The notes beneath the pieces were generated by a model that saw only the letters and a list, made by a program, of their open reading frames with translations, was not told where the DNA came from and searched no databases. From the IMG/VR virus record IMGVR_UViG_3300025840_000182, positions 1 to 28,543 of that record: a stretch of 28,543 bases of DNA; one strand, given 5' to 3'. This stretch comes from a virus. Of this stretch, positions 5,601-28,543 are shown piece by piece (the first letter of the stretch is position 1; the number at the start of each line of letters is the position of its first letter). A program made the translations under genes and the position numbers.

Positions 5601-7024
5601 CTTTAAAATTGGAGCAAAATGACTTTGCAAAATTAAGTCAACTGCAACGATTTGCTGGAGTGTCCGATAATGCGGCCAGTGAAGTTAGAAAAATTTTAGG
5701 AAATCCCAGCAACTGGAAACAAAATGCCGCGAAAAACTTTGAAAATTTACTCAAAGAAATAAATAACTTTGCCGTTAAAAATAAAGAAGAGGCTCGTTTA
5801 GCCAGAGAAGCCTTAACCAATGTTGTGGTGGACGATGCATATAGGTATGCCGGCGGATCTTCTTTAAAAGAAATTGACTTTCAAAAATTCAGAGAATATT
5901 TGTATAAACCGCTGGAATCTGACGGAAAATCAGTTGCTCAATTACTAGAAGAATACGGGTTTGTCCAAAAGGATGCTTTCAATAACTACAACAAATTAAT
6001 TAACCACGCCGCTTCGGTAGCGCAATTAATGCGTAGAGAAGGCCCCGTTTCTACAGAAAAATTGTCGGACAAAGGAGCCTTGCTTACTAACCTTCTTTTA
6101 GGCGCTAGTGGCGCAATGTCCGGTAACTGGTTGTTTGAAAAATTAAGACCATTAATTGGTAACCTGCCCGGAGCAAGCTTTTCGGTAGCTCAAAGCACTG
6201 CATCCGCTACTAGAAAATTGGGCGGAGAAATGCCCGAAGCGAAAGTTCAAGACGTTCTTTCTCGGGCATTGTTGTACCCGGAAGAAGCTGTGGCGCTATT
6301 GAAAAAAGCGCCTAAAACAGAAAAAGAGTTGATTGAATATTTCGGTAGTATCCCGGCAATTTTTTACTCATCCGTAGCTAGACAGGCGACACCGGATATT
6401 TCTAGAGACGTTGATTATGTAGAAGAAGTTTACCGCGACGTTGTGCCGCAAGCTCAACCAGAGCCTACGCCCACCGAACCACGGCCCACGGGTCCGCTGT
6501 CTATTCAAAACAACAACCCCGGCAACTTGCGGTTGGCAGGACAGCCCGGTGCAACGGAAGGACAGGGCGGTTTTGCGGCGTTTTCTTCTCCCGGTCAAGG
6601 TTTGCGAGCATTAACCCGACAAGTTGTTTTGGACACTCAAACACGCGGCATGAATCTTGAAGATTTTTTAAATAAGTACGCGCCGCCATCTGAAAACCAG
6701 ACAAATCAATACATTTCGTTTGTGGAGCGGCAGACGGGCCTAGACGCTAAAAGCAAAGTGCCTGAGTCAAAAATTCCTCAACTTGTTCGCGCCATTGTAC
6801 GGATGGAGGGCGGCCAAGAAGCTGTGGACTATTTCTATGGCCAGCAACGTGCCGAAGCGGCTCCTGCACCACAGCCTCCGATAGCACAAGCCGCGCCCCC
6901 CGCACCACCGACCCCGGCTCCCGTCAGCCCTCAGTCGTTACAGCGGGCGGCACAGGTTTTGGGGCCGCAGGATGAGATCGGGATGCTGGCGTCAGAAATG
7001 CTGATGAGGCAAAGACCGGCTTAG
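2669..7024 (+). CDS. Giant internal virion protein with C-terminal muralytic (NPGN) domain, 1451 aa
   Basis: This is probably a DNA-ejection protein that also cuts peptidoglycan during entry. Most of the chain is helical and charged with Gln/Ala-rich repeats. Gly/Ala-rich hydrophobic stretches near residues 130-170, 265-280 and 1145-1180 could insert in membrane. The C-terminal part, about residues 1277-1400, has the signature NNNPGNLR (NPGN at 1283-1286), a GFAAFSSPGQGLRAL segment and YAPPSEN, typical of the lytic domain annotated in phages as P5-like or virion-associated muralytic. A Pro/Ala linker and a short helical tail follow. The start is GTG with AAAGGA only one base upstream; an in-frame ATG at 2720 is the alternative. 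The T7 gp16 analogue carries its lytic domain at the N-terminus, so the order here is reversed. The stop overlaps that of the convergent helicase gene. Confidence 0.75.
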   Translation: MATDTEKTQSVVDVLQGMEQPPVTTGTYDIQQKLEDQVPLSTINQDLAQLKGFNYPAAFEFLKNRRRQALINEGLTADSIVDEDLNTFADESILIELSGGQFERFSKRGQVQKGMEKAALDVVPSVAFAKGAQQGFMATPGPLPAKLLGGAGLGTLYATAAYVPGQYIFKKISPTEEVPSQRPFVEATRTFSGNLATLMALPMVLKQGTVDFLSDRIARNIDGMAPGFKRKLATAGQKIVSGLERVVEGVAKPMSPVTSRKDAAAKLAVAGATSALPAVGAKVAEEVDPYDPLTRIGAEVGFSSLPVLRVGAYLTQKTANSVMSALRNIVSKSGREDQVKRDMIQALNTLSQKYDQKPFKTEDFVADIELALESSPLRELVDTLNESKAQAAQAIGRPFTEEQKLMLPPLTLAQSVAGFEKMVDGKKINPLQILEALDRGQRRLNTKPGGYAEEAQRRYDDYKIFAETIMRELVNDAGNDPIALSELAEVQADLFAGGIAERLDAAKNIALDQTKNLRPEEKRTVFSTFLFKNIISSLDDTNEATDLMYANAKERLSNLNHRPGRALAKIREIQQVDGRTQLHPLLSEMQSVFSPDQSALQADVASLINRRDEAARVLLNKEMEAEEYRLKQGTRFDEPSEFGEFGVARILQQNQDQPIDNQILALRQELDNLTGAGGRFQTQATRTEAAYIRKIIPVLNAQKTLDMRQAEVDNANALLAGEEANELSVSQLLDFRSRLAKQQRQAINVNDAQAVRDLGVVEEALLEDLEVLSGGSALSTAGNDEIRSFEQLLESLPPGESPAALGLAMLRQANAFNRAKHDVFTRTFIGDVLKKSPKGGLAKNPKTLLMQLIRGDADEVGIKVAELEDAINWLNSERFQGPREFLPEEKLAELSESAINRFGTYRAAKDDIARALIRRKNLIEKDTTSETFGQINKRTAQSFLADYKEALGDLFPDVFRDIERALDGRITLDDVIESLKLEQNDFAKLSQLQRFAGVSDNAASEVRKILGNPSNWKQNAAKNFENLLKEINNFAVKNKEEARLAREALTNVVVDDAYRYAGGSSLKEIDFQKFREYLYKPLESDGKSVAQLLEEYGFVQKDAFNNYNKLINHAASVAQLMRREGPVSTEKLSDKGALLTNLLLGASGAMSGNWLFEKLRPLIGNLPGASFSVAQSTASATRKLGGEMPEAKVQDVLSRALLYPEEAVALLKKAPKTEKELIEYFGSIPAIFYSSVARQATPDISRDVDYVEEVYRDVVPQAQPEPTPTEPRPTGPLSIQNNNPGNLRLAGQPGATEGQGGFAAFSSPGQGLRALTRQVVLDTQTRGMNLEDFLNKYAPPSENQTNQYISFVERQTGLDAKSKVPESKIPQLVRAIVRMEGGQEAVDYFYGQQRAEAAPAPQPPIAQAAPPAPPTPAPVSPQSLQRAAQVLGPQDEIGMLASEMLMRQRPA
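6481..6494 (+). repeat. ACGGRCC-type pair in internal virion gene
   Basis: ACGGCCC then ACGGGTC, placed just before the muralytic domain, in its Pro/Thr linker. Confidence 0.55.
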
Positions 7025-9952: not shown

Positions 9953-11491
9953 ATGTCAGATGCGAAAAGATTTGCGGCTATCTTTGATGGCCTAAAGCAA
10001 GCCTACGGCACGTTTGAAGTCGATAGCACCAAATCAAACGGCAAGAACACCGGTAAAGCTCGCGTCGTCCGCGAACCACGGACCACGGGCCATTTTGAGC
10101 AACATCTAGCCGGAGACGGGGCGGGCATAGGGATAATCCCAATTAATGAAAACGACTCCTGTAAATGGGGTTGTATCGATATCGATGAATACCCGTTGGA
10201 TCACGGGAAATTGGTAGAAAAAATACGCCGGGGCAACATGCCTCTGGTAATATGTCGATCCAAATCGGGGGGCGCTCACTGCTTTATCTTTTGTAAAGAG
10301 TGGGTGACAGCAAAGACAATGCAATCCACGCTGCAACACTTAGCAAGCGGGCTAGGGTATGGCGGCAGTGAAATCTTCCCGAAGCAGATAAAGTTGTTTT
10401 TAGACCGGGGGGATATCGGAAACTTCTTGAATATGCCGTACTTCAATGCGGAAGACGGCCTGCGGTACGCGTTTAACGACGACGGCACTGCCGCAACGCT
10501 TCAAGAATTTTTCGAGTTGTATGAGGCGCACGTCCAAACGCCAGAACAACTGGAAGCACTTACGCAAGCCAAAATTGAAAACACAGCAATTGTGGACGGT
10601 CCGCCCTGTCTCCAAACCCTATGCGCCCAAAAAATTAGCGAAGGGGGACGAAACAACGGACTCTTCAGCATAGGTGTTTACCTGCGTAAGGCGTACCCGG
10701 ACACATGGCAGGATGAGATCCTGCATCACAACATGGCCTACATAGACCCGCCGTTACCTCTCAACGAGGTCAATCTGGTAGTCAAACAGCTTGAGAAAAA
10801 AGATTACGCCTATCGGTGTAGTGACGCGCCTATCCAGCCCTATTGCAATCGTGAGCTATGTCAAACCCGAAAATTCGGCATTGGGGCGGCAGTCAGCGAC
10901 ATGGCCGTGGCTAATCTGCGGAAGTACAACTCTATTCCGCCCGTGTGGTTTTTGGACGTGAACGGCGTTCCGTTAGAACTGGACACTGATGCACTTCAAA
11001 ACCAAACAGTGTTTCAAAAAGCCTGTATAGAGCAGCTTAACTTTATGCCGCAGACAATGCCTCGGCGCGGGTGGGAAGCTCGGATCAATCAGTTGATGAA
11101 GGAAATGGCGGAAACGGATGGGTCCATAATGGAGGTGTCCGAAGACGCCAGCATTAACGGGCAGTTTTACGAGTATCTTGATGAGTTTTGTACGTCCACC
11201 CAAAAAGCGGAAGACCGAGAAGAAATACTGTTGCGTCGTCCATGGGTAGATGAAGAAACGAACGCTGTGCATTTCCGCCTTAAAGATTTTGAGGGGTTCC
11301 TACGGAAGAATCGGTTTAGTGAATTCAAGACACACAAGGTGGCACAACGGTTGCGCGATATTAACGGTGAGGCCGTTCAAATAAAAATAAAGGGGAAAGC
11401 CATTCGGGTTTGGAAGATACCTGTGCAAGACATCCCTCACGACCAGTTAGAGTCCAAAGCGTTTGAAACACGGACCACGGACCCGTTCTAA
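9953..11491 (+). CDS. Archaeo-eukaryotic-type DNA primase (AEP)
   Basis: This primase makes RNA or DNA primers for phage replication. The N-terminal catalytic domain has WGCIDIDEY, with metal-binding D76 and D78, and SKSGGAHCF with H109. These are the DxD and sHt motifs of the AEP superfamily and resemble the AEP-TOTE branch. Around residues 225-310 lies a PriCT-like helical region ending in a Cys-containing segment (YRCSDAPIQPYCNRELC) common in phage AEP primases. The remainder is unassigned. No DnaG/TOPRIM or fused DnaB helicase is seen. The ATG lacks a clear Shine-Dalgarno. The TAA overlaps the ATG of the UvrD-like gene. Confidence 0.85.
   Translation: MSDAKRFAAIFDGLKQAYGTFEVDSTKSNGKNTGKARVVREPRTTGHFEQHLAGDGAGIGIIPINENDSCKWGCIDIDEYPLDHGKLVEKIRRGNMPLVICRSKSGGAHCFIFCKEWVTAKTMQSTLQHLASGLGYGGSEIFPKQIKLFLDRGDIGNFLNMPYFNAEDGLRYAFNDDGTAATLQEFFELYEAHVQTPEQLEALTQAKIENTAIVDGPPCLQTLCAQKISEGGRNNGLFSIGVYLRKAYPDTWQDEILHHNMAYIDPPLPLNEVNLVVKQLEKKDYAYRCSDAPIQPYCNRELCQTRKFGIGAAVSDMAVANLRKYNSIPPVWFLDVNGVPLELDTDALQNQTVFQKACIEQLNFMPQTMPRRGWEARINQLMKEMAETDGSIMEVSEDASINGQFYEYLDEFCTSTQKAEDREEILLRRPWVDEETNAVHFRLKDFEGFLRKNRFSEFKTHKVAQRLRDINGEAVQIKIKGKAIRVWKIPVQDIPHDQLESKAFETRTTDPF
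10078..10091 (+). repeat. ACGGACC-ACGGGCC pair in primase gene
   Basis: A tandem heptamer pair encoding P-R-T-T-G-H, near residue 42 of the primase. Confidence 0.65.
11470..11483 (+). repeat. Perfect ACGGACC pair at the primase C-terminus
   Basis: Two perfect units encoding T-R-T-T-D-P, just before the primase stop. Confidence 0.7.
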
Positions 11492-16232: not shown

Positions 16233-17048
16233 ATGGATCTGATAAATGCAATTGACCTCGGCACAGCCAAGGCATACAAAAACGAAAGGCGTTGCTACAT
16301 TGGAGCAAGTAACGTGGGCAACCCATGTCACGCCTTCTTGCAATATAGCCTTCGGGGTTATCCCCAGAGCAACCCCCCGCCCGCCGTCATACGCATCTTT
16401 AACCTTGGCCACCATTTGGAGGATGTTGTTGTCGAAGACCTAAAGTCCGCCGGGGTGGCTGTTTCTGAAGTAAATCCAAAGACCGGCAAACAGTGGACCT
16501 ACACCGCCCTCGGCGGTCATGTGCGAGGCCACGCTGACGGCGTTGTTTACACCGGGGCAAAAGAAAGCCCTAAAATCCTTGAAATTAAATCCATGAACGA
16601 TAAGAAATGGAACAGCTTTAAAAATCAAGGAATCGCCCGGAGCCACCCCATCTACTACGATCAGATGCAACTGCTTATGGGGCTCTCCGGTTTTTCTTCT
16701 GCGTGGATGGTTGCCTACAACAAAAACACATCCGCGTATCACACAGAACACGTGGCGTTTAACGCGCCGCGTTACAAAGACCTTCTGCGTAAATCAGTAT
16801 CCGTGGTCCGTGGCTCGTCCGCCGCCCGCATTGCAGATACCCCTGACTGCTTTGAATGCCGGTATTGTAACTACAGACCACACTGCTGGCCCAACGGTAT
16901 CCAACCACCACCGATTGCCGTTGAGTGTATAACTTGTCGCCACAGTAAGCCGACAGGCAAACGCAAGTGGCGTTGTACGTTACACGGGTCACGGGCCACG
17001 GAGCCTTGCTCACAATGGAGTAAACTTCAACCCACGGAGAAACTGTAA
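16233..17048 (+). CDS. PD-(D/E)XK nuclease, RecB/Cas4-like, with Cys clusters
   Basis: The nuclease core reads GGHVRGHADGVV (D102), then LEIKS (E117, K119) and YYDQMQLLMG, the RecB-family order. A Cys-rich segment CFECRYCNYRPHCW near residue 208 recalls the iron-sulphur or zinc cluster of Cas4-like phage exonucleases. A second cluster (CITCRHS, C-terminal WRCTLHG) may bind another metal. Likely a DNA exonuclease for recombination or host DNA breakdown. The start at 16233 fits the promoter; ATGs at 16197 and 16221 lie in the terminator or promoter. It contains ACGGRCC repeats near its end. The TAA overlaps the next ATG. Confidence 0.85.
   Translation: MDLINAIDLGTAKAYKNERRCYIGASNVGNPCHAFLQYSLRGYPQSNPPPAVIRIFNLGHHLEDVVVEDLKSAGVAVSEVNPKTGKQWTYTALGGHVRGHADGVVYTGAKESPKILEIKSMNDKKWNSFKNQGIARSHPIYYDQMQLLMGLSGFSSAWMVAYNKNTSAYHTEHVAFNAPRYKDLLRKSVSVVRGSSAARIADTPDCFECRYCNYRPHCWPNGIQPPPIAVECITCRHSKPTGKRKWRCTLHGSRATEPCSQWSKLQPTEKL
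16801..16813 (-). repeat. Inverted heptamer pair in nuclease gene
   Basis: CCGTGGTCCGTGG is the reverse complement of CCACGGACCACGG, so the repeat can sit in either orientation. Confidence 0.55.
16984..17004 (+). repeat. Three ACGGRCC-type units at the nuclease C-terminus
   Basis: ACGGGTC, ACGGGCC and ACGGAGC run in tandem inside the coding region, close to its 3' end. Confidence 0.6.
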
Positions 17049-17860: not shown

Positions 17861-18014
17861 CGCGTTTTGCCGCCTCTTCTATCAACTGTAAGCGGCTGGC
17901 ATAAAACGACGGGTCTTTCTTTTCAAAGTCTTCGTCGTTATCTTCCTCAAAATCCAACTCGCTCTCATCTTCTAAATTATCAAGAAACTCTTGCCACTCT
18001 TCTTCTTTATTCAT
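17847..18014 (-). CDS. 55-aa acidic hypothetical protein
   Basis: The peptide begins MNKEEEWQEFLDNLEDESEL, is highly acidic in the first 30 residues and ends in a basic helix (AAKRVKRR). GAGGAG (18019-18024 on the minus strand) gives an excellent ribosome site five bases before the ATG. It is the second gene of a minus-strand pair and overlaps the upstream gene by eight bases. No family is recognised. The acidic character could fit a DNA-mimic or adaptor protein, but that is only a guess. Confidence 0.6.
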   Translation of the reverse strand: MNKEEEWQEFLDNLEDESELDFEEDNDEDFEKKDPSFYASRLQLIEEAAKRVKRR

Positions 18015-18270
18015 GACTCCTCAACTCCTGAATGCTGGTCACCCAATCCATGGGTATTGCAAGTTCCGCGTCCCCTTCTTCCACCAGCCCCTTGTCATTT
18101 AACAAAACGTGCGGGCATATCAAAATACGCTGTTCGTCCTGATGCAAAATCACGCCGCACGACAGCACCGCCGCCTCCTTCGTATCCCGCATCTCCTCAA
18201 CCGAACGCCAACCTACACGGCCCCCGCCACACGCGTCACGCCATCTAATTAAAAACAATTTTGGCTCCAT
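18007..18270 (-). CDS. 87-aa conserved-type small phage protein
   Basis: The product begins MEPKLFLIRWRDACGGGRVG, then a W-S-V-E helix, then VLSCGVILHQDEQRILICPH with beta-strand character, then IPMDWVTSIQEL. This layout (Trp-rich strand, central Gly/Val/Ile beta hairpin, IP-helix end) is common in small uncharacterised phage proteins whose role is unknown. GGGGGGA upstream on the minus strand supports the start. It is the first gene of a two-gene minus operon, divergent from the gene at 18328. Confidence 0.65.
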   Translation of the reverse strand: MEPKLFLIRWRDACGGGRVGWRSVEEMRDTKEAAVLSCGVILHQDEQRILICPHVLLNDKGLVEEGDAELAIPMDWVTSIQELRSHE

Positions 18271-19293: not shown

Positions 19294-19437
19294 ATGAGCG
19301 ACCGCACAGGTGAACTGCTCGTCGGGGCGGCGAAAGTCATGGCAGGGATACTCATTATCCTTACAGCATCATGCACCATCGTTACCTCACACGACCCGCA
19401 ATGGGAATGGCCCCGAGACTTAGAGCAGGGAGAATAG
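19294..19437 (+). CDS. 47-aa small membrane protein
   Basis: AAGGAGA lies about seven bases before the ATG. The peptide is MSDRTGELLVGAAKVMAGIL, then the rest of one membrane helix (IILTASCTIVT), then a short acidic tail (HDPQWEWPRDLEQGE). A Cys at residue 27 sits in a Leu-Thr-Ala-Ser-Cys context, close to but not matching a standard lipobox. It follows the 140-aa gene by 12 bases in the same unit. Holin-like or spanin-like roles are possible but unproven. Confidence 0.6.
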   Translation: MSDRTGELLVGAAKVMAGILIILTASCTIVTSHDPQWEWPRDLEQGE

Positions 19438-19498
19438 ACCACGGCCCATTCTTACCGTGAGCCGTGGCCCATTAGCCCCATGTCGGGAGACAGCAGGC

Positions 19499-19526
19499 AC
19501 GGGCCACGTATCACGGACCACGGATA
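19499..19526 (+). repeat. Four tandem ACGGRCC-type heptamers
   Basis: ACGGGCC, ACGTATC, ACGGACC and ACGGATA run head to tail, the longest run of the 7-bp family in the window. The run merges into the palindrome that begins at 19525. Confidence 0.75.
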
Positions 19527-19541
19527 TATACATTGTATATA
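19525..19541 (+). repeat. 17-bp AT-rich palindrome
   Basis: TATATACAT-TGTATATA is an inverted repeat (ATATACA, one central T, TGTATAT, plus flanking T/A). It could extrude as a cruciform or bind a dimeric protein. Confidence 0.75.
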
Positions 19542-19555
19542 CAAGGTACATACAC

Positions 19556-19572
19556 AAGGTCATTTGTGGCCA
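19556..19572 (+). repeat. 17-bp repeat AAGGTCATTTGTGGCCA, copy A
   Basis: An exact copy is at 25734-25750, and a variant AGTCAAATGTGGCCA at 25776-25790. One copy lies upstream of the terminase small subunit gene and two upstream of the large subunit gene. Confidence 0.75.
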
Positions 19573-19585
19573 CGGACCACGGACC
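19572..19585 (+). repeat. Tandem ACGGACC pair
   Basis: Two perfect ACGGACC units directly follow the TGTGGCC end of the 17-bp repeat, in the non-coding region. Confidence 0.75.
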
Positions 19586-19693
19586 TTTGTGTAGAAGTGC
19601 AGCAAGAAAGGGGCTACCTTTTATATCTACACCCCATCTGTACTTCGAATAATCTATTTTTAAGAAAAATACCTACACTTCTACACTACACCA

Positions 19694-19714
19694 GCGGACC
19701 ACGGACCACGGTGC
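19694..19714 (+). repeat. Three ACGGRCC-type heptamers
   Basis: GCGGACC, ACGGACC and ACGGTGC run in tandem in the non-coding region. Confidence 0.7.
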
Positions 19715-19779
19715 TTAATTTCGCTATCTATATAGTGTTTTCCAGAGAAATAAAAAAATAAAAAAATAAATTCCAAATA

Positions 19780-19812
19780 GGCGGGACCGGCGGGACGGCG
19801 GGACCACGGGCC
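19780..19812 (+). repeat. GGCGGGAC repeats ending in ACGGGCC
   Basis: GGCGGGACC, GGCGGGAC and GGCGGGACC run together, followed by ACGGGCC, beside the TAAAAAAA tract (19751-19766). The sharp change from A-tract to GC-rich repeats is unusual. Confidence 0.7.
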
Positions 19813-19911
19813 TACAGGGCGCATAAACGCTCAATTTTACGGGTCACGTTAGGGTCCCGTTGGATACACCACTTTGTACCAAGCTTGTTAATCAAGCTAT
19901 TGCTATTGAGG

Positions 19912-19953
19912 TTTTCCAGTTTTCAAAAAAATTATTTTTAATTCTCTGGAAAA
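19912..19953 (+). repeat. Long AT-rich hairpin upstream of terminase small subunit
   Basis: TTTTCCAG (19912-19919) pairs with CTGGAAAA (19946-19953), and the interior A and T runs can pair further. The 3' arm is also the partner of TTTTCCAGAGAA at 19738-19749, so two alternative structures compete. Confidence 0.6.
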
Positions 19954-20017
19954 TATATATACAGGGGGCAAAAATAAGGTATGGTTAGCCGGACTTACTC
20001 ACATACAGGGTCTTCGC

Positions 20018-20632
20018 ATGACCAAGAAGAAAAGCCGGTACGCTAAGGTGCTGGACACCAAAGCGGCCTCACTTCCCGAAGCAAAGCAACAGACAAGAAC
20101 ACGACCGCCATTGGCCCAAAAGCGCCTGACGCGTAAGCAAGAACTTTTTGTGCGAGAACTGGTGGCAAAAGATGGGCAAATCACTATGCGGGAGGCGGCG
20201 ATCAATGCCGGGTATCCTGAACGCTCCGCTCATGTTCGCGCTTCCGAACTGACCAACCCCCGCATCAGCCCCCATGTTTGTCGAGCTATCCGCGAATATC
20301 GACAGGAGCTTGATCAGAAGTATGGCGTGGAATACCAACGGCACCTGCGGGATCTGCAAGTGATTCGGGACGCTGCTCTTGAAAACGGCGCATTTAGTGC
20401 GGCGGTTCAGGCAGAGTATCGTCGTGGTCAGGCGCAAGGCGACATCTACGTGAACAAGACAGAGATCCGTCACGGTACGATTGATCAGATGAGCAAGGAA
20501 GAAGTGTTGAAGGCTTTGAATGAGTTGAAGCAAGCATATGCTCCGATAACGCACGATGCCGGAGCAGGGGACGGAGGTAATCGGTCCAAGGCGCGTGAGC
20601 GGTTAGCGGAGGACATAGATGTTTCTGATTAA
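20018..20632 (+). CDS. terS: Terminase small subunit
   Basis: This protein recognises the phage DNA packaging site and loads the large terminase. After a basic N-terminus, LTRKQELFVRELV begins at residue 37, followed by ITMREAAINAGYPERSA, the helix-turn-helix pattern of Terminase_2 proteins. A helical oligomerisation region (residues 90-140) and a C-terminal region (KEEVLKALNELKQAY) follow; 204 aa is typical. It is about 5.2 kb from the large subunit gene, whereas the two are usually adjacent; accessory genes fill the gap. The start follows a candidate TATGGT -10 at 19980 with no clear -35. CAGGG is a weak ribosome site. Confidence 0.88.
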   Translation: MTKKKSRYAKVLDTKAASLPEAKQQTRTRPPLAQKRLTRKQELFVRELVAKDGQITMREAAINAGYPERSAHVRASELTNPRISPHVCRAIREYRQELDQKYGVEYQRHLRDLQVIRDAALENGAFSAAVQAEYRRGQAQGDIYVNKTEIRHGTIDQMSKEEVLKALNELKQAYAPITHDAGAGDGGNRSKARERLAEDIDVSD

Positions 20633-27342: not shown

Positions 27343-28543
27343 ATGGCATTAACTTCAGGTATTGGCAGTCTTGCTGGGTATAACACGGGCGGTAGTGTTC
27401 CTCAAGTAGGCGGTTCTGGTGGCACGAGTGCCCCCATGACACTTGAAGAATTTTTGGAGGCCTTTGGTCGTAGTGGCAATGGTCTTATTGGGGGATTAAC
27501 GGGAGATGTTGCTTACAAGGCTTATTTGCAAGCTTTGGCCGCATCTGGTGGAAATGTCGATGTTACTAATGGGAATATTACCGTTAAACCTCGAACTTTG
27601 CCGTCGTACATGAGTGTTAACGATGACGGTAAAATTCTTTTTGCGGAGGGGACGACTAACCGCCAGTTTATAGAGGCCATGAATTTGTTAGGTCTTCTTG
27701 GTACAAAGCGCCCGGATGGCCAGACAGATTATCAGTGGTTGCTTGCATGGTTAGGAGACAGTCCCGAAAGCGGCTCTGAAACGTGGTTATCGCATTTTTA
27801 TGGCAGACCCGATGAGGCTCCGGATAGGGGGTTTTTAAGTAACACGGGCGAGGGCGCTTTAAATTCAGAAAACAAAGCTACAATGACGCGTTTGTTAGAT
27901 TTATTAGATAATGCGAGTGTGGCGGGTGGTTTTACGCCGAACCAAAGTTTCATAAACACGTATTTGCCCCCTGTAGTACCCGGACAAAGTTTTACTGGCG
28001 AATCGGTTACCCGCCCTGTTTTTATTGGACAACCGCCTACCGGCGGAGAAGCAGAAGCACCGTACTATCAAGCATCTGACGTTTTGGTGTCTTCTGCCGA
28101 GCAGCCTTCGCTGTATGACTACAACGTAGATCCTGAAACGGGGCTGGGCCAATTTGACCCTTATGCGCCTTTTGAAAGGAAGGACCCGTACACCGGAAAG
28201 GTGGATCTGCTATATCCGTATAAGCCGCCCCCGGAAGTGACAATACTACCGGTTCCACCAGAGGAGCCGGTAACGCCAATAGAGCCTTTTGCCCCGCCTT
28301 CGACACCGGTTTCTACGGCTCCTACAACTACGTCTTTAACGCCAACAGTCCCCGAGGCTACCACGCCGATATCAACAACTCCTACAACTACGCCTGTAAC
28401 GCCAACAGTCCCCGAGGCTACCACGCCTGTTTCTACGGCCCCGACAACTACGTCTTTAACGCCAACGGTCCCCGAGGCTACCACGCCCTCCGGCATTGTT
28501 CAGGGTCCCCCTCCCGGACCCACGGAAACCTCCGACCCCGTTC
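27343..28543 (+). CDS. Thr/Pro-repeat protein, 3' end missing
   Basis: From ATG 27343 the frame stays open for 400 codons to the window edge. Residues 1-30 are Gly/Ser-rich (LAGYNTGGSVPQVGGSGG), residues 30-200 look globular, and from about 240 the chain becomes Pro-rich. Residues 321-380 form three tandem 20-residue units such as TPVSTAPTTTSLTPTVPEAT. It follows terL by five bases, where a portal or head-joining protein often sits, but no portal motif is visible. The repeat resembles an extended linker or surface-exposed region. Confidence 0.7.
   Translation, partial: MALTSGIGSLAGYNTGGSVPQVGGSGGTSAPMTLEEFLEAFGRSGNGLIGGLTGDVAYKAYLQALAASGGNVDVTNGNITVKPRTLPSYMSVNDDGKILFAEGTTNRQFIEAMNLLGLLGTKRPDGQTDYQWLLAWLGDSPESGSETWLSHFYGRPDEAPDRGFLSNTGEGALNSENKATMTRLLDLLDNASVAGGFTPNQSFINTYLPPVVPGQSFTGESVTRPVFIGQPPTGGEAEAPYYQASDVLVSSAEQPSLYDYNVDPETGLGQFDPYAPFERKDPYTGKVDLLYPYKPPPEVTILPVPPEEPVTPIEPFAPPSTPVSTAPTTTSLTPTVPEATTPISTTPTTTPVTPTVPEATTPVSTAPTTTSLTPTVPEATTPSGIVQGPPPGPTETSDPV
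28303..28482 (+). repeat. Three tandem 60-bp coding repeats
   Basis: Units at 28303-28362, 28363-28422 and 28423-28482 each encode a 20-residue Thr/Pro unit; a fourth, diverged start (ACG CCC TCC) follows. Units 1 and 3 are more alike than either is to unit 2, which suggests a two-unit copy or gene conversion. Confidence 0.85.

Follow-up and report, generated by a model that had tools for sequence, protein, structure and literature searches.

A conserved block of about 235 bp upstream of the small terminase gene (terS), at positions 19727-19961, is quite probably the replication origin of the phage studied here, and comparison with related sequences points to recognition by the phage's own AEP-TOTE primase. 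The window is the whole stretch of DNA that was analyzed, a 28.5-kb phage fragment, and all positions are window coordinates. The element combines an outer inverted repeat and A/T arms with three direct repeats of 8-9 bp (GGCGGGAC) and two to three inverted copies. The spelling of these iterons tracks one or two primase residues, which suggests that the primase finds the start site itself. We consider an origin read by the primase the best explanation, since the site tracks the primase wing, is present in a single copy and combines AT-rich arms with opposed iterons. A first-pass annotation had proposed an origin with iterons and an AT-rich unwinding region across 19438-20017. This role is still the best-supported reading and all repeats named there exist in the sequence, but the functional unit is narrower (19727-19961) and some parts had been misassigned.

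Genome context

Genes in the window encode two helicases, one SNF2-like and one UvrD-like, together with an AEP-TOTE primase, a family-A polymerase, an exonuclease and the terminase proteins TerS and TerL. Among named phages, the closest are HTVC023P and HTVC027P, both of Pelagibacter, as well as 023Pt_psg01 and DSL-LC04, with TerL values of 53-61% to these four. The phage belongs with the HTVC023P-type marine podoviruses, with which it has TerL, the primase, the UvrD-like helicase, PolA and the gene order in common. The primase gene, the product of which (512 aa) is the proposed origin reader, lies at 9953-11491 on the plus strand (PHROG 21866 primase, E 8e-102). The AEP-TOTE domain is recognized by Pfam PF22548 (E 1.8e-11; 44.5 bits against a cut-off of 27) and is the sole Pfam match, so that no helicase domain was found in the protein.

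A small open reading frame ends at 19437 and terS (20018-20632, plus strand; Pfam PF03592), the next gene downstream of the element, starts at 20018; no convincing gene was found in this gap (19438-20017). Searches for Rfam families and for tRNAs gave no match. The terS gene is reversed in HTVC027P and 023Pt_psg01, where the element is not located at its start, and two small genes separate the element from terS in DSL-LC04. In the window, the element directly precedes the gene run from terS to terL. It could on this ground be an operator or promoter that controls terS and the late genes through binding of the primase or of some other factor, and not an origin; a promoter-like match at 19626-19653 also speaks for this, albeit at a level no higher than shuffled sequences give. 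We regard such a role as quite unlikely. The position relative to terS varies in the three phages just mentioned, the size and symmetry of the element exceed those of a usual operator, and a site read by a primase is expected at an origin.

Organization of the conserved element

A TerS search yielded 80 marine contig loci, of which the terS-upstream DNA was compared by eye. The conserved block follows a fixed order. With TCTATATAG, the outer inverted repeat and the A/T arms come the three direct repeats, then a near-constant center, which usually contains GCATAAA; the inverted repeat copies follow, and after them a small palindrome and the other A/T arm. The element is present as a single copy in each of 34 relative contigs (G001-G034) and in the window. 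Conservation of the terS-upstream DNA, named in the first-pass annotation as a check, thus holds for 19727-19961, whereas the DNA outside this block, including the heptamers and the 17-bp palindrome described below, is not kept.

The outer inverted repeat was identified by a repeat search. Its left arm (TTTTCCAGAGAAATAAAAA; 19738-19756, plus strand) is preceded by TCTATATAG and is 95% complementary (18 of 19 positions) to the right arm (19935-19953, plus strand), which is followed by TATATATA. What had been described as a 12-bp inverted repeat spanning 200 bases is present, but is part of this longer pair. When the whole 28.5-kb window was searched for inverted repeats 110-320 bp apart, the pair of the element was the sole match (score 16.5). 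The left AT-rich arm is a period-8 A tract at 19748-19773 (plus strand; Tandem Repeats Finder), kept in relatives; the period-8 tracts noted earlier were indeed found at 19748-19770. The right AT-rich arm runs from about 19923 to 19961. Both arms adjoin the iterons and are candidate unwinding regions.

The three GGCGGGAC repeats occupy 19780-19805. Each carries the core GGGAC on the plus strand, at 19783-19787 (within GGCGGGACC), 19792-19796 and 19800-19804, and together they form a direct-repeat family. Their inverted partners on the minus strand, at about 19843-19867, were assigned from the sequence and the relatives. The first (19843-19847) is degenerate in the window (GTCAC) and is an exact GTCCC in relatives with GGGAC, e.g., L053 and L077. 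The second (19854-19858) is GTCCC, and a possible third (19863-19867) is degenerate (GATAC) and exact in L239, L240 and L342. These direct and inverted copies are the actual iterons, and the inverted ones were absent from the first-pass annotation. A small palindrome (AGCTTGTTAATCAAGCT; 19882-19898) is largely kept in relatives. A detector for three tandem pentamers with an inverted copy beside AT-rich DNA gave four matches in 177,758 control bases taken from relatives, all of them homologous elements.

Concerted change of the iterons

Of 117 loci scored, several of which are repeated views of the same contig, 106 have the same core in each of the three left copies: GTAAC in 42, GTTAC in 28, GGGAC in 18, GGTAC in 12 and GGGAT in 6. 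The remaining 11 comprise loci truncated by a contig end (L004, L008, L039, L049, L057, L079, L081), locus L082 with another unit (GTAGAAAG) and the named phage records (L117-L119). Collapsing near-duplicate loci leaves 46 distinct elements, and in 44 of them two or more of the right copies read as the left core in reverse complement. The other two are the window type, with one exact right copy, and L045, with none. In L045, at about 4.1 kb, the left iterons are GGGAC and the right ones GGTAC; at the iterons, this element is either recombinant or a chimera of assembly. GTAAC reads GTTAC on the opposite strand, and the switch between both could represent a flip of orientation.

The design is kept in distant relatives with other units, namely TGT(T/G)ACAA in HTVC027P and TGGCACA in 023Pt_psg01. 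It is also kept in HTVC023P, where the copies of the unit CTAGGAAA are mostly direct. Phage DSL-LC04 retains the outer inverted repeat, and iterons could not be assigned in its element.

The reverse complementarity of left and right copies in most relatives would also fit a structural DNA or RNA hairpin, the copies of which covary by base-pairing and are homogenized by slippage and template switching, with no protein reader. We consider this very unlikely. A hairpin does not predict that the core is tracked by a single wing residue encoded 8 kb away; the mostly direct copies of HTVC023P do not suit it, and the third left copy changes as well, though two would suffice for pairing.

Covariation of the iteron core with the primase

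The TerS proteins of G009 (GTTAC) and of G017, G019, G028 and G034 (GTAAC) are identical (0 of 205 residues differ), and L115 (GGGAC), L116 (GGGAT) and L075 (GGTAC) encode the same TerS over the aligned part, bar one residue near the end. TerS is therefore an unlikely reader of the iterons and was rejected in this role, since it stays constant where the cores differ. Binding close to their own gene is common among small terminases, and the element adjoins terS in the window lineage. Both points would suit a packaging start (pac- or cos-like) site recognized by TerS, a reading that we deem unlikely given the constancy of TerS across differing cores and the two phages with a reversed terS, where the element is not at its start. 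TerS could bind the constant parts of the element.

No alignment column perfectly split GTAAC from GTTAC contigs in the helicase, primase, UvrD, PolA, TerS, VRR-type nuclease or TerL. This strict test is misleading, as it demands a perfect split and hinges on one contig (G014). The columns that did turn out disjoint lay in proteins that are small or change fast and have few rows (e.g., the structural ORF at 405 and r27343), and were taken as chance.

The change V476L in the primase accompanies eight of nine close-pair comparisons from GTAAC to GTTAC in separate lineages, although these pairs share members and are not eight events. Between L193 (GTAAC) and G002 (GTTAC), only 4 of the 512 primase residues are changed, including T475M, V476L and L499V. 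Residue 476 has a normalized mutual information of 0.89 with iteron class (20 rows, G014 left out), and no other column in nine proteins exceeds 0.65 (cas4-like exonuclease, 11 rows), followed by 0.62 for the helicase (16 rows). When G014 is included, 20 of 21 contigs combine Q476 with GG.AC, V476 with GTAAC or L476 with GTTAC. The exception is G014, where V476 goes with GTTAC; the element is located at the end of this contig, which is possibly a chimera. This agreement was never reached in 100,000 simple permutations, which ignore relatedness. A primase tree built without the wing (27 rows) requires a minimum of 10 changes of iteron class and of nine changes at residue 476. An independent-pairs test, which has low power, gave three pairs per contrast, nearly all agreeing (p 0.25). 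In the window, the codon of the covarying residue 476 (Q) is located at 11378-11380 and that of a second covarying residue, 478 (K), at 11384-11386, both on the plus strand.

The association was followed in further contigs, none of which had been used to find the rule and in which primase identity is 58-75% where measured. Residue 476 agreed with the core in all eight. Contigs L372 and L379 (Q476, R478; primase 60% identical to that of the window) have GGTAC, as does G004 (Q, R). The near-identical L342 and L350 (V476) have GTAAC, G039 (V476) has three GTAAC copies and L340 (V476, N478) has GTAAT. In G036 (Q476, K478), three of five copies are GGGAC, the others being GGTAC and GGGGC. L401 (Q476, N478) has two GGGAT and three GGGGT copies, thus G-G-G and the final T in five of five and the exact core in two of five. 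The cores of G036, G039 and L401 (GGGAC, GTAAC and GGGAT, respectively) were expected before the elements were seen; in the other contigs, wing and element appeared together. Contigs carrying GGGAT-class elements are too short to include the primase, and this class was tested through L401 alone. Three contigs with S476 (L351, L355, L356) have mostly GTAAC; as a new letter, they were not counted as a test.

No element was found in the available parts of a number of contigs with a wing (L337-L339, L346-L348, L204, L361, L387, L395, L399, L409, L414). Several of them span 4-9 kb downstream and most may stop short of the site; they count neither way. One of them, L387 (wing V-R), contains a strong inverted repeat (score 22.5) flanking about 160 bp at 17954-18117, which may be the counterpart of the element in that phage or some other feature.

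Predicted fold of the primase C-terminal part

The C-terminal part of the primase (residues 375-512; 11075-11488, plus strand) was modeled with AlphaFold (model m1dbe8b1623bf) and used in a fold search. A winged helix is predicted at about residues 431-490, and blocks 61-120 of this 138-residue model have a mean pLDDT of 82-91. The full-length model is weak (pTM 0.43), with residues 300-400 poorly modeled. In the C-terminal model, residues 473-479 form the first wing strand, with 476 and 478 two positions apart on this same strand. The C-terminal domain gave nothing credible in sequence searches of Pfam and the PDB.

The best fold match is TcpK (5vfy), with a weak Foldseek E-value of 0.018, a Z of 8.8 and an rmsd of 3.3 over 93 residues. 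Further matches are C-terminal domains, that of SCCmec Cch (5dgk) with a Z of 6.2 and an rmsd of 3.1 and that of SaPIBov1 Rep (8tch) with a Z of 6.0 and an rmsd of 3.6; such Z values can reflect no more than a common fold. The coincidence of the covarying strand with the element by which TcpK reads DNA is no more than suggestive.

GC skew

In G001-G005 and G039, only 0.4-4.2% of positions have a detrended cumulative GC skew as low as that of the element (G002 being an incomplete genome). The element is thus at or near the minimum in six of 10 genomes, as the first-pass annotation had anticipated for an origin, but the skew fails in the four more distant ones. It lies off the minimum in HTVC023P, HTVC027P and DSL-LC04, and in 023Pt_psg01 the skew at the element is opposite in sign to that of the window lineage. 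In the latter phage (L120 and L175), the skew maximum, at about 13,657, is no more than 93 bases away from the midpoint taken for the element. GC skew may follow gene content and gives weak support at best for an origin; given the mixed results, it was dropped as proof.

Repeats outside the element

The heptamers CCACGGA/ACCACGG (19498-19524, 19570-19585 and 19690-19711) had been taken as iterons and the 17-bp palindrome TATATACATTGTATATA (19525-19541) as a further origin part. Both were rejected as origin parts, not being conserved with the element. The palindrome is confined to the nearest relatives of the window (loci L001-L003 and L005-L007). CCACGG/CCGTGG occurs 38 times in the whole window (e.g., 6479-6492, 10076-10089, 16801-16814, 19439-19711), compared to 13.7 ± 3.8 in block shuffles, and this window-wide scatter means that the heptamers are not the iterons. 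Such units also occur inside genes and are frequent in relatives, with 45-52 per genome. Near terS, HTVC027P carries a heptamer-like run of another kind (CAAGCYN).

An insert of about 110 bp (19586-19697) lies between CCACGGACC heptamers and has its own inverted repeat (GTGTAGAAGTG ... CACTTCTACAC). It is present in the window lineage, L017, L022, L027, L036, L066-L068, L073 and L074, and is entirely lacking in L005. Its repeated CTACAC units resemble the GTAGAAAG iterons of L082, and it is possibly a captured remnant of a foreign origin. Elsewhere in the window, a 60-bp tandem repeat (28319-28487; 2.8 copies) encodes Pro/Thr-rich repeats in a gene that runs off the window end.

Proposed mechanism and comparison with known systems

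Computation shows that the element is conserved and single-copy, that its iterons change in concert and that they covary with the primase wing; primase binding, melting, priming and origin firing we infer. The predicted C-terminal winged helix of the primase would bind the iterons, with the five-base core read mainly by the beta-wing (residues 476 and 478). Primase copies on the three direct and two or three inverted sites would be loaded facing both ways, and the A/T arms on either side, enclosed by the outer inverted repeat, would open. The N-terminal AEP domain would then lay the first primers, to be extended by the family-A polymerase of the phage together with the phage helicases.

Phage P4 alpha is a primase with a C-terminal origin-binding domain that reads iterons, and it carries its own helicase. 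The system proposed here would share the combination of a primase and C-terminal iteron reading, but the helicase is fused in alpha and none was found here. When compared to the group of P4 alpha, SaPI Rep and D5-type proteins, the primase has a C-terminal winged helix in the model, and no helicase domain was found in the same protein. Its proposed mode of action resembles that of P4 alpha or SaPI Rep, but as it shows no helicase domain, it was not grouped with them.

In SaPI Rep and SCCmec Cch and Cch2, the C-terminal domain recognizes short origin iterons (PMC7581432). Their C-terminal fold resembles that of the window primase (8tch, 5dgk), but their reader is an initiator helicase with the origin beside its gene, whereas the proposed reader here is a primase without a detected helicase domain and the origin is located about 8 kb away. 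TcpK of plasmid pCW3 (5vfx/5vfy) binds tandem 9-nt repeats in oriT with its beta-wing in the major groove (PMC6137059). It is alike in being a winged helix that reads mainly by the beta-wing, and is the best fold match, but it acts in conjugative transfer, is a separate small protein and has no sequence similarity. For AEP primases of the PrimPol-PV1 supergroup, which have a C-terminal winged helix, origin recognition was suggested by the authors (PMC5862659); in the available part of that text, the suggestion concerns other AEP families and comes without a site or residue-level link. In geminiviruses, close relatives differ in their short iterons, which are matched to the cognate Rep (PMC12548392), but this is an unrelated rolling-circle Rep of plant ssDNA viruses.

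The consulted parts of the literature searched, including PMC9599517 and PMC12753301, do not describe the element or the link between wing and iteron, nor was the replication start of these very abundant ocean phages found there. More tentatively, and with somewhat less than even confidence, we propose that a two-residue wing code (476/478) marks the origin for a helicase-less primase in widespread marine phages. This code may read Q-K for GGGAC, Q-R for GGTAC, Q-N for GGGRT, V-K and S-K for GTAAC, V-N for GTAAT and L-K for GTTAC. It may have been switched repeatedly, like incompatibility groups, barring co-infecting phages or parasites from each other's replication machinery. An origin read by the primase names a reader protein, a site and the matching residues for the start of replication, and would give residue-level support to the idea that winged-helix AEP primases recognize origins. 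It would also provide a natural series of closely related pairs of site and reader, which bears on why origin specificity diversifies.
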